Positions 6,218-15,288 of a DNA stretch of 64,000 bases are shown here, in pieces. Each line of letters begins with the position of its first letter. Positions within the stretch are counted from its first letter, which is position 1. The notes below the pieces were generated by a model. That model saw nothing but the letters and a program-made list of their open reading frames with translations. It was not told the DNA's origin and did not search any database. The position numbers and the translations under genes were made by a program. Source of the stretch: Ruania alba (GTDB lineage: Bacteria; Actinomycetota; Actinomycetes; Actinomycetales; Beutenbergiaceae); contig NZ_FNTX01000002.1 in the NCBI RefSeq assembly GCF_900105765.1, forward strand, positions 1,550,001 through 1,614,000, in the 5' to 3' direction.

Positions 6218-6276
6218 GCCGAGCGCAACCCTGTGCGGCGTTCTCGCGATATTCGCCGCACAAGGTTGCGCTCGGC
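6218..6276. repeat. 60-bp palindromic repeat, copy 1
   Basis: Left arm 6218-6240 and right arm 6254-6276 match over 23 bp with one mismatch; the shared core is CGCAACC[C/T]TGTGCGG, with a 13-base loop. Four further copies at 7361, 13808, 15229 and 16940 share the arm sequence and overall length. It lies between the alpha-glucosidase and the DUF559-type gene, both on the plus strand, so it can act as a terminator, but sequence conservation between copies goes beyond a terminator. Confidence 0.8.
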
Positions 6277-7360: not shown

Positions 7361-7420
7361 GCCGAGCGTCACCTTGTGCGGCAGATTCGCAACGATCCGC
7401 CGCACAAGGTTGCGTTCGGC
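7361..7420. repeat. 60-bp palindromic repeat, copy 2
   Basis: Arms 7361-7382 and 7399-7420 with a 16-base loop. The right arm contains GCACAAGGTTGCGTTCGGC; the left arm differs at three positions, one of which is a G-U pair. It begins 9 bp after the DUF559-type gene stop and precedes the convergent S9 peptidase stop at 7448. Confidence 0.78.
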
Positions 7421-12646: not shown

Positions 12647-13780
12647 ATGACCGAGACACCGATCCACAAGGGACTGGCCGGCGTGGTGGTGGACACCACC
12701 GCGATCTCCAAGGTCAACCCGGACACCAACTCGCTGCTCTACCGCGGCTATCCGGTGCAGGATCTGGCCGCGCACTGCTCGTTCGAGGAGGTCGCCTACC
12801 TGCTCTGGCACGGTGAGCTGCCCAGCCCGGACCAGTTGGCCGAGATGGAGAAGCTCGAGCGTTCCCTCCGGCCGCTCGATGCACGCACGAAGACGCTCAT
12901 CGACGCCCTGCCGACGACGGCCCATCCGATGGATGTGGTGCGCACCGCCGTCAGTCAGCTGGGTACCTTCGACGACACGCTGCTGCAACCGGAGGGGCTG
13001 ACCGACCGCACCCTGAACGAGGGGCGTGCGATGTATCTGTTCGCGCAGCTCCCGGCGATCGTGGCCTACGATCAGCGCCGCCGCCGCGGTGAGGACCTCA
13101 TCGAACCGCGTGATGATCTGGGGTACTCGGCGAACTTCCTCTGGATGACCTTCGGCAGTGAGCCGGCGCCGGCGGTGGAGCAGGCCTTCAACGTCTCGAT
13201 GATCTTGTACGCCGAGCACTCCTTCAACGCGTCCACATTCACTGCGCGGGTGGTCACGTCCACGTTGTCGGACCTGTACTCCGCGGTTACCGGGGCGATC
13301 GGAGCGCTTAAGGGGCCGCTGCACGGCGGCGCGAACGAGGCAGTGATGGCCGTGTTCGGTGAGATCGGCACCGCCGACCGCGCCGATGACTGGCTCGAGG
13401 CCGCCCTCGCTGAGAAGCGCAAGATCATGGGCTTCGGGCACCGGGTCTACAAGCACGGCGATTCCCGCGTACCCACGATGAAGGCGGTGCTGGACGACCT
13501 GGTCGAGCATGCCGGCCGGCGGGACCTGGGTGACCTCTACGACGCCCTCGAGCAGGCGATGACGTCCCGCAAGAACATCCTGCCGAACCTCGATTACCCG
13601 GCCGGCCCCGCCTACCACCTGATGGGCTTCGACACCGCGACCTTCACGCCGCTGTTCGTCGCCTCCCGGGTGACCGGGTGGACCGCCCACATCATGGAGC
13701 AGCTCGAGTCCAACTCCCTGATCCGGCCGTTGAGCGAGTATGTGGGCCCGGATCAGCGGGAGGTGCCTGCCCGCCCCTGA
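12647..13780 (+). CDS. prpC: 2-methylcitrate synthase / citrate synthase
   Basis: Condenses propionyl-CoA with oxaloacetate. 377 aa from ATG 12647, with AAGGAGGAA a few bases upstream. Catalytic motifs are YAEHSFNAST (His), PLHGGANEAVM (His) and KIMGFGHRVYKHGD; the terminal Asp region is FVASRVTGW. Short citrate synthases of this size in actinobacterial prp operons act as 2-methylcitrate synthases, often with residual citrate synthase activity; context with prpD and prpB decides the call. Palindromic repeat copy 3 follows 27 bp after the stop. Confidence 0.94.
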   Translation: MTETPIHKGLAGVVVDTTAISKVNPDTNSLLYRGYPVQDLAAHCSFEEVAYLLWHGELPSPDQLAEMEKLERSLRPLDARTKTLIDALPTTAHPMDVVRTAVSQLGTFDDTLLQPEGLTDRTLNEGRAMYLFAQLPAIVAYDQRRRRGEDLIEPRDDLGYSANFLWMTFGSEPAPAVEQAFNVSMILYAEHSFNASTFTARVVTSTLSDLYSAVTGAIGALKGPLHGGANEAVMAVFGEIGTADRADDWLEAALAEKRKIMGFGHRVYKHGDSRVPTMKAVLDDLVEHAGRRDLGDLYDALEQAMTSRKNILPNLDYPAGPAYHLMGFDTATFTPLFVASRVTGWTAHIMEQLESNSLIRPLSEYVGPDQREVPARP

Positions 13781-13807
13781 CCCCTGCCCGCTCCGCCCCT
13801 GACCCCG

Positions 13808-13867
13808 GCCGAACGCAACGTTGTGCGGCGGCAACCGCTTGTCGGGCCGCACAGGGTTGCGTTCGGC
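13808..13867. repeat. 60-bp palindromic repeat, copy 3
   Basis: Arms 13808-13829 and 13846-13867, 16-base loop. Core CGAACGCAAC / GTTGCGTTCG; two adjacent mismatches in the stem. It follows prpC and precedes the DAHP synthase leader region. Confidence 0.78.
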
Positions 13868-13956
13868 GATCAGGGGGGCCAGGGCGCCCTGGGCCCTGGG
13901 CCCTGCGCCCGACACCCGACGCCCTGCGCCTGTGGGGTTGGTGTATGGTCGCTGCC

Positions 13957-14013
13957 ATGCATTCGGTTCGTTGGTATTGGTTTGCGTCGGCTCCGGCCGC
14001 CGCGACCTGCTGA
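13957..14013 (+). CDS. Aromatic amino acid leader peptide
   Basis: An 18-codon ORF, MHSVRWYWFASAPAAATC, with Trp-Tyr-Trp-Phe in codons 6-9, ends at TGA 14011-14013, 113 bp before the DAHP synthase ATG. Four consecutive aromatic codons in such a short peptide upstream of the first enzyme of aromatic biosynthesis are the hallmark of ribosome-mediated attenuation. There is no SD, but a TATGGT -10-like hexamer at 13944-13949 would start RNA at or next to the ATG, so the peptide is probably read from a leaderless transcript, as is common in actinobacteria (inference). Confidence 0.8.
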   Translation: MHSVRWYWFASAPAAATC

Positions 14014-14089
14014 CGCGCGCGACCGGAGCCGACCAGGGCGTGGACCATGAGGTCCGCGCCCTTCGCCATTGAGGCGGGCGCTCCGGAGC
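13986..14089 (+). promoter_or_regulatory. Transcription attenuator of DAHP synthase gene
   Basis: Hairpin A pairs GTCGGCTCCGG (13986-13996) with 14023-14033; its left arm starts five bases after the Phe codon, so a ribosome stalled on the aromatic codons would cover it. Hairpin B at 14036-14061 is GGGCG-T-GGACC, ATGA loop, GGTCC-G-CGCCC, followed by TTCGCC: terminator-like. A second GCTCCGG copy at 14080-14086 can pair with the freed right arm CCGGAGC (14023-14029), enclosing and competing with hairpin B. This offers two exclusive folds. The switch logic is inferred from sequence only. Confidence 0.65.
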
Positions 14090-14126
14090 ATCGGTGAGTT
14101 CGCCTCCACACCGTGAGGAACCACTG

Positions 14127-15221
14127 ATGACCACCACTCCCACCGCCGAGCGCACGGACGCCAGCACCGGCGACCTGCGGGTGCGCCGGATGGACCCGCT
14201 GCCCACCCCCGGTGAGGTGCTCGCCGAACTGCCACTGCCCACTGCGGCAGCCGAACTCGTGGCCAGCGCCCGGGCCGACGCCGCCGATGTGCTCGCAGGT
14301 GCCGACGACCGGCTGCTGGTGATGGTCGGACCGTGCAGCGTGCACGACCCTGCCGCCGCCATCGAGTACGCCCACCGACTGGCCGGCGCTGCCGAGAGCT
14401 ACGCCGACGACCTGGTGCTGGTGATGCGGGTCTACTTCGAAAAGCCCCGCACCACCACCGGGTGGAAGGGCCTCATCAACGATCCCGGGCTAGACGGCTC
14501 CTACGACATTCCCCGGGGCCTTCGCCTGGCGCGGCAGGTGCTGCTGGACGTGCTCGCCGCAGGCGTGCCCGCCGGGTGCGAGTTCCTGGAGACTACCTCC
14601 CCGCAGTACATCGCCGACACTGTCAGCTACGGCGCGATCGGCGCCCGCACGGTGGAGTCGCAAGTGCACCGCCAGCTGGCCTCCGGGCTTTCCATGCCAG
14701 TGGGGTTCAAGAACTCCTCCGACGGCGATGTGCAGGTGGCCGTGGACGCGTGCGTGGCCGCTGCCGCACCGCAGGCGTTCCTGGGCGTGGACACGCAGGC
14801 CCGGGCGGCGCTCGTGGAGACCGCGGGCAACCCGGACTCGCACGTGATCCTGCGCGGTGGGCGCCGCGGACCGAACTACGCCCCCGAGCACGTCCGCGCT
14901 GCCGCGGAGAAGCTCACTGCGGTGGGCCGTGCCGGGGTGATGGTGGACGCCAGTCACGGCAATTCTGGCAAGGACCATGTGCGACAGGCACAGGTGGCCG
15001 CCGAGATCGCCGAGGCCGTTGCCGCGGGGGAGACCGCCGTGGCCGGGGTGATGCTGGAGAGCTTCCTCGTGGAAGGACGGCAGGAGCCTGCACCGAGTGG
15101 TCTGGTCTACGGGCAGTCGGTCACCGACGCCTGCATGTCCTGGGAGGTGACCGAAGGCGTGCTGGAGCAGCTCGCGGCCGCTGCACGGACGCGCCGAGGT
15201 GCGCTCCGCCGTCGGGCATAG
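14127..15221 (+). CDS. aroF: 3-deoxy-7-phosphoheptulonate synthase (class I)
   Basis: Joins phosphoenolpyruvate and erythrose 4-phosphate, the committed step to chorismate. 364 aa from ATG 14127, GAGGAA six bases upstream; a GTG at 14094 is possible but has no SD. Motifs are MVGPCSVHDPAAAIEYA (about 73-89), YFEKPRTTTGWKGL (about 104-117), MPVGFKNSSDGD and VDASHGNSGKDH. This is the class I (AroFGH) type, not the plant-like class II enzyme, which actinobacteria often have in addition. The upstream leader peptide with Trp, Tyr and Phe codons predicts control by aromatic amino acid supply. Palindromic repeat copy 4 begins 8 bp after the stop. Confidence 0.96.
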   Translation: MTTTPTAERTDASTGDLRVRRMDPLPTPGEVLAELPLPTAAAELVASARADAADVLAGADDRLLVMVGPCSVHDPAAAIEYAHRLAGAAESYADDLVLVMRVYFEKPRTTTGWKGLINDPGLDGSYDIPRGLRLARQVLLDVLAAGVPAGCEFLETTSPQYIADTVSYGAIGARTVESQVHRQLASGLSMPVGFKNSSDGDVQVAVDACVAAAAPQAFLGVDTQARAALVETAGNPDSHVILRGGRRGPNYAPEHVRAAAEKLTAVGRAGVMVDASHGNSGKDHVRQAQVAAEIAEAVAAGETAVAGVMLESFLVEGRQEPAPSGLVYGQSVTDACMSWEVTEGVLEQLAAAARTRRGALRRRA

Positions 15222-15228
15222 CACACCC

Positions 15229-15288
15229 GCCGAGCGCAACCTGGTGCGGCGAAGATGGCACCGAACGCCGCACCAGGTTGCGCTCGGC
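15229..15288. repeat. 60-bp palindromic repeat, copy 4 (perfect stem)
   Basis: Arms 15229-15250 and 15267-15288 pair perfectly over 22 bp with a 16-base loop. Both arms carry CCTGGTG where the other copies have CCTTGTG, so the change is matched on both sides. It lies between the DAHP synthase and SnoaL-like genes. Confidence 0.85.

Follow-up and report, generated by a model that had tools for sequence, protein, structure and literature searches.

The closest precedent for the element described here is the aroR leader of Corynebacterium glutamicum, which Neshat and colleagues reportedly described before aroF in 2014. According to excerpts of four sources, this leader encodes a Phe-Tyr-Phe run (PMC11802643, PMC4046766, PMC7356990, PMC3890552), and in excerpts of two of them transcription of the aroF operon in C. 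glutamicum rises under phenylalanine limitation and is unaffected by tyrosine availability (PMC11802643, PMC4046766). Tyrosine being without effect there, not every codon of such a leader need be sensed. For the Actinobacteria at large, the excerpted parts of one survey list trp, ilv, leu and cys elements and report no conserved RNA structures upstream of phenylalanine/tyrosine operons (Seliverstov 2005, PMC1262725). Eight leaders are named in the excerpted text of an S. lividans survey, none of them before a DAHP synthase gene (PMC8079986), and excerpts of a further source describe, ahead of the Acholeplasma aroF gene, a motif named uORFC-13-1 (PMC8632094). Word searches of the literature, whose coverage leaves most subscription papers outside, returned no report of the wider element presented below.

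The window analysed here, a stretch of 64,000 nucleotides from Ruania alba, contains a class I DAHP synthase gene at 14127 that is the sole TIGR00034 match in its own genome. A sequence-only reading had pointed to an 18-residue ORF with four consecutive aromatic codons ahead of this first enzyme of the aromatic pathway, and both the sequence of the ORF, which runs from an ATG at 13957-13959 to a TGA stop at 14011-14013, and the TIGR00034 match bear this out. The features of the locus are as follows.

13944 to 13949, + strand: predicted -10 box TATGGT, read from the sequence, 7 nt 5' of the leader ATG
13957 to 14013, + strand: leader ORF encoding MHSVRWYWFASAPAAATC, found in 8/8 genomes of the genus
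13972 to 13983, + strand: regulatory codons TGG TAT TGG TTT (Trp-Tyr-Trp-Phe), read from the sequence
13986 to 13996, + strand: segment A, GUCGGCUCCGG, within the ORF, a partner of B
14023 to 14033, + strand: segment B, CCGGAGCCGAC, 3' of the stop codon, with A or C as its partner
14035 to 14062, + strand: terminator-like hairpin T, 12 pairs with loop ATGA, covarying
14063 to 14070, + strand: tail TCGCCATT 3' of hairpin T, a weak U-tract
14073 to 14089, + strand: segment C, GGCGGGCGCUCCGGAGC, the third segment, a possible partner of B
14098 to 14101, + strand: GUUC, which by eye could pair weakly with the Shine-Dalgarno flank GAAC
14115 to 14119, + strand: Shine-Dalgarno sequence GAGGA of the DAHP synthase gene, read from the sequence
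14127 to 15221, + strand: class I DAHP synthase gene, presumed to be the controlled gene (TIGR00034, E 2.2e-144)

Because the -10 box ends 7 nt before the ATG, the transcript is predicted to be leaderless, with its start expected at 13957. A TANNNT box lies 6-8 nt ahead of the start in 96 of 97 leaders, a rate biased by a leader finder that preferred starts with a -10 box. The DAHP synthase unit is also flanked by copies of a palindromic repeat, CCGARCGCAACNNNGTGCGGCG, which occurs at 6219-6275, 7398-7419, 13809-13866 and 15230-15287 of the window (seven matches at up to 2 mismatches, with 0.01 expected); it forms inverted pairs in three places, two of which flank the unit, and looks like a REP-type intergenic element.

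Like aroR, the window element is an aromatic leader peptide of an actinobacterium directly before a DAHP synthase gene. It differs in its run, Trp-Tyr-Trp-Phe as against a Phe-Tyr-Phe in which no Trp is named (a comparison by description, not by RNA sequence). For aroR, attenuation has been reported from transcript data. Acholeplasma, the host of the uORFC-13-1 motif, belongs to another phylum. As far as its excerpted description goes, that motif resembles the window element in that a uORF holding one or more Phe codons precedes a DAHP synthase gene and adjoins a terminator, where the window has its terminator-like hairpin; but only Phe is named there and the RNA is different. With the actinobacterial trp attenuators, as excerpted, the element shares leader codons and GC-rich hairpins, with a terminator-like hairpin in the place of their terminator; these attenuators are built as terminator/antiterminator triples, whereas no antiterminator was found for the window element (PMC1262725). 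The excerpts of the same survey also describe a LEU element before leuA, also an actinobacterial leader ORF, which carries regulatory codons and is followed by RNA extending to the Shine-Dalgarno sequence; there it is the leucine codons that base-pair with the Shine-Dalgarno box, whereas no such pairing stands out in elements of the window type (mean z of -0.16 between Shine-Dalgarno and ORF).

Covariance model R1 gave 68 matches in 67 of 394 genomes of the class, spread over 27 of 138 genera. Of these matches, 46 lie 65-181 nt 5' of a TIGR00034 match, 17 precede a chorismate mutase gene (CM_2 above the Pfam cut-off in 17/17), one stands before a tyrosyl-tRNA synthetase gene, and four are weak and chance-like, with no aromatic gene seen nearby. 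Model R2 gave 58 strong matches in 54 of 297 genomes of the order, with an E-value gap from 5e-11 to 1e-5, and two of its weak matches, when read, both proved to be without a leader; a strict pattern search recovered only 3/297 and was too strict. The own genome holds a single copy (next best E 0.93). All eight genomes of the genus carry the element, as do, by a strong R2 match, 17/17 genomes of the family that have a class I DAHP synthase and 0/7 of those that do not, three of the seven giving weak R2 matches (E 3e-4 to 3e-3). The aromatic run is conserved in close relatives, as the sequence-only reading would predict. The same layout was seen in named genomes of one Streptomyces, Mycolicibacterium, Gordonia, Arthrobacter and Isoptericola. 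In a sample of 396 genomes of the phylum, for which the number from outside the class is not given, ten match at E 1e-6 and all belong to the same class. Rfam models run against 13700-14400 of the window gave only three chance-like matches, far under the cut-off. The element is widespread in the class, and the aromatic-codon leader with its folded RNA before DAHP synthase is in all likelihood functional.

R1 is absent at 32 of 78 class I DAHP synthase genes, which counts against an attenuator reading. Twenty of these 32 loci were examined: six carry a second leader type with a YFWF or YYWF run, and 14 show none. The second type, in which the run is followed by PA.GG, occurs in Rhodococcus, Nocardia, Amycolatopsis and others (L033, L041, L044, L050, L068, L082, L175-L180); by eye, in six named genomes, its segment B pairs with A or with a downstream CCGGCUCG, and it has no terminator-like hairpin.

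The codons of the leader track the gene behind it. In the run that precedes segment A, 72 of 93 distinct peptides before DAHP synthase contain Trp, Tyr and Phe, 15 contain Phe and Tyr without Trp, and six contain Trp and Tyr without Phe (six leaders without a clear segment A were cut at residue 13 for this count). When residues anywhere in the leader are counted, all three occur in 76/93, including three leaders with Trp and one with Phe solely downstream of A. The aromatic residues come in varying order (WYWRF, WYWF, WYAYF, WFTY, WQFY, FYW, YWRFFEW), and 20 of 30 unique runs hold all three, compared with 8.0 in residue shuffles (sd 2.3; 0/20000 shuffles reached 20; relatedness was not removed). 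Chorismate mutase belongs to the branch that leads to Phe and Tyr, not to Trp, and among its 14 distinct leaders eight contain Phe and Tyr, six contain Phe only and none contains Trp; the 17th match is partial and its leader was left uncalled. The leaders before tyrosyl-tRNA synthetase contain Tyr only, in 4/4 genomes of one genus (g7; L147, L223, L224, L225; for example MLTRRVYPNGSGVSRSPARP). Three of these four loci were added by R2; two match tyrS over the cut-off and L223 does so over its first part only, its tyrS frame seeming broken. Since the codons correspond to the amino acids that the downstream enzyme helps to make, the leader most likely reports shortage of Trp, Tyr and Phe, and since codon identity tracks the pathway of the downstream gene, there is strong evidence in the sequences for a sensor of tRNA charging. 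Of all the observations, this tracking argues most strongly that end products are sensed by the codons. Of the proposal that one peptide senses all three amino acids at once, the conservation of the triple leader and the exchange of codons with the gene stand; the 21/93 leaders lacking Trp or Phe count against the attenuator reading. An aromatic leader before DAHP synthase is already known from aroR, and the combined, codon-exchanging element would be a new variant that is widespread in the class.

Two observations on these loci deserve mention in their own right. Of the 15 DAHP synthase leaders without Trp, 13 come from a single clade (family f38, genera g130 and g150), with runs YPYF, YRYF, YSYF and YF (no-Trp loci of the clade: L108, L110, L113, L116, L117, L120, L122, L124-L126, L128, L129, L137 and L138), and Trp may be handled otherwise there. 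Among the 17 chorismate mutases (PF01817) behind the element, 14 also show a partial N-terminal match to a DAHP synthase domain (PF00793), which in 12 is over the cut-off (L144, L146, L148, L150, L151, L152, L154-L158, L160, L161, L164); such a fusion could be an unusual allosteric one or a remnant.

The Tyr and Phe codons of the DAHP synthase leaders are mostly those that the downstream genes seldom use. In 97 distinct DAHP synthase leader ORFs, TAT outnumbers TAC by 120 to 6 and TTT outnumbers TTC by 87 to 10, whereas 76 downstream DAHP synthase genes show the reverse (TAC 404 vs TAT 10; TTC 592 vs TTT 19; five loci, three duplicates and two without a usable leader, were omitted, and some of these genes were read from a wrong start codon, in the window a GTG at 14094). 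Elsewhere in the same leaders C-ending codons are favoured for Ile (54:1), Asn (38:6) and His (20:4), U-ending ones for Asp (GAT 16 vs GAC 9) and Gly (GGT 55 vs GGC 30), and usage is mixed for Ala (103:115) and Arg (CGT 82 vs CGC 112); the U-leaning and mixed codons of these other residues are perhaps partly due to segment A. Chorismate mutase leaders favour TTT for Phe (16:5) and, opposite to the DAHP synthase trend, TAC for Tyr (8:2). The rare U-ending Tyr and Phe codons suggest slower wobble decoding, and a reason at the level of the RNA is also possible. From the start of the last aromatic codon to A the distance is 8 nt in 73 leaders and 11 nt in 30 (110 counted of 117), so a ribosome stalled at that codon would reach the base of the A helix. 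In 3/4 leaders of tyrosyl-tRNA synthetase and in 1/97 of DAHP synthase (L143), the GGCUC of A falls in a different reading frame; it is therefore RNA, not peptide, that is kept there.

The RNA that follows the codons folds as the sequence-only reading had proposed in most respects. Its first hairpin was said to start five bases after the aromatic codons; GGCTCC indeed begins at 13989, five bases past the TTT codon, and its pairing with 14023-14033 reaches back to 13986. The fold of the window leader beats 200/200 shuffles (z -5.1). In the first 28 sequences the A:B and T helices covary (score 0.309, compared with 0.123 when shuffled, and also exceeding slid controls), 91.5% of the cells in the helix alignment are paired and 13 of 23 pairs show changes on both sides, so that the compensatory hairpin changes expected in aligned upstream regions are present; on 93 sequences, in an alignment fitted to the model, the score is 0.304 compared with 0.116. 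Hairpin T covaries over its 12 pairs and yet has a weak tail in the window, where a simple terminator scan found none and TCGCCATT is a poor U-tract, a qualification to the terminator-like hairpin of the sequence-only reading, which is otherwise upheld; the tail is U-richer in the chorismate mutase copies and in several mycobacterial ones. The third segment, suggested to swap partners, lies at about 14073-14089 and can pair with B: the B core has -17.8 kcal/mol with the downstream region (z -2.4). Pairing at the GUUC of the window with its Shine-Dalgarno flank gave z -0.1; in sister species, judged by eye, the equivalent partners are GGUCC and GGACC.

Our own proposal, which we hold to be probable, takes the element for a ribosome-mediated attenuator acting on the DAHP synthase gene. 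The leaderless 18-codon ORF would be translated at once. With charged tRNA-Trp, tRNA-Tyr or tRNA-Phe in short supply, the ribosome would halt at 13972-13983, just 5' of A, so that the A:B helix can form (B at 14023-14033). A ribosome that translates on through A would instead release B for pairing with C, past hairpin T. The swap would raise enzyme output under shortage through read-through of a leaky terminator, through opening of the Shine-Dalgarno sequence, or through both. Conservation, covariation, gene-tracking codons and narrow spacing are the grounds on which this proposal is built, and the swap is a product of the models; we infer the transcript start, the stalling and the direction and level of output. 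The sensor is well supported and the change from A:B to B:C is plausible in the models. When the model moves from a stall at the first aromatic codon to a fully occupied ORF, pairs between B and the ORF fall from 17.0 to 0 and B:C pairs rise from 1.3 to 8.0 (n=82; 10/92 elements were omitted for start distance, the choice of DAHP synthase start being unsure). Intermediate footprints are mixed, however, B being divided between its two partners when the final aromatic codon is the stall site (B:ORF 7.8, B:C 7.3) and leaning to the ORF when the ribosome is at the stop codon (8.5 and 1.8), so the modelled swap logic is not clean. A masking of the DAHP synthase Shine-Dalgarno sequence by the Trp-Tyr-Trp codons, suggested by a first fold, was rejected (the mean z of -0.16 given above, with 1% below -2; n=90 of 92, some of them with a wrong DAHP synthase start).

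What the swap does to expression is where the readings divide. In a classical trp-type attenuator a stalled ribosome would let an antiterminator form that excludes hairpin T, and leader codons, hairpin and terminator-like hairpin do follow one another as such attenuators require, with a U-rich tail in the copies before chorismate mutase and in several from mycobacteria; a Corynebacterium ilvB motif of uORF hairpin plus terminator is described as a classical attenuator in the excerpted text of PMC10272879. In 92 elements (one without a hairpin dropped), however, neither arm of T has a standout complement in any upstream sequence: mean z was +0.56, +0.09 and +0.17 for the arms and tail, and at most 3/92 had z < -2 for the 5' arm. 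T, moreover, keeps 10.6-10.7 pairs at every modelled ribosome position (29 and 92 elements) in models that hold stem energies only, without kinetics or triplexes; excerpts on the Streptomyces venezuelae trpE attenuator report that a model failed until triplexes were added (PMC4833913). Because the antiterminator test failed, we do not file the element as a classical trp-type attenuator, which we regard as unlikely. The earlier view of the hairpins as a classical terminator/antiterminator pair is not supported, and their proposed exclusiveness holds between A:B and B:C and does not extend to the terminator hairpin. Alternatively, the choice between A:B and B:C would set whether the region around C covers the Shine-Dalgarno sequence, as a switch of translation. 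B:C pairing is above chance (z < -2 in 25/75), pairing of the Shine-Dalgarno sequence with its complement less so (19/75), and modelled opening is greater under stall than with an occupied ORF (0.38 vs 0.35; of 82 elements, 22 open more and 9 less, P 0.0055, a value made optimistic by related rows), by eye most clearly in several mycobacterial rows. Against this, the gain is slight across the elements and close to zero in the window (0.15 vs 0.11), the mycobacterial rows L024 and L135 run in the opposite direction, ribosome footprints placed on the first aromatic codon, the last one or the stop codon shifted opening in no common direction (13 rises to 15 falls, and 8 rises to 21 falls, among 92), which leaves the contrast with the fully occupied ORF as the only one to show an effect, and the conserved terminator would be left idle, so this switch is a doubtful explanation by itself. 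For the attenuator that we propose, the output route may be leaky termination affected by kinetics, control of translation, or both.

The remaining explanations concern the peptide. TnaC is an arrest peptide that senses tryptophan in the ribosome tunnel, and a nascent chain here might similarly sense free aromatic amino acids, an APGG-like stretch recurring after the aromatic run. This stretch looks RNA driven, however, given the other frame of GGCUC, the aromatic order is scrambled and the U-ending codons point toward decoding, which makes arrest very improbable; among the leaders, peptide conservation beyond codon and RNA constraint was not seen, as order varies and the frame differs in the tyrosyl-tRNA synthetase and L143 copies. 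That the ORF is a chance one with a functionless aromatic run is favoured by nothing except its small size and, with class-wide conservation and codon sets that track the gene, has almost no chance of being right. Tentatively, the element can also be described in wider terms: it may be a modular, class-wide one, whose fixed scaffold of A, B, T and C serves the genes of DAHP synthase, chorismate mutase and tyrosyl-tRNA synthetase alike with only the codons exchanged, its sensing possibly sharpened by rare U-ending codons, and its output may need no antiterminator if B leaves a partner upstream of T for a downstream one.

Because nature itself swaps the codons when the target gene changes, a control is already at hand by which the claim of sensing can be tested directly, and the bias to rare codons yields the testable claim that decoding speed tunes attenuators. 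If the attenuator reading is true, the element would offer a handle for strains producing aromatic amino acids. In E. coli, responding to the three aromatic end products at this step is the work of several DAHP synthase isozymes together with repressors. TyrR and TrpR are named as the E. coli repressors in the excerpted text of PMC11802643. In the organisms that carry the element, if the reading is true, one short peptide would report on the three products together where the shikimate pathway begins.
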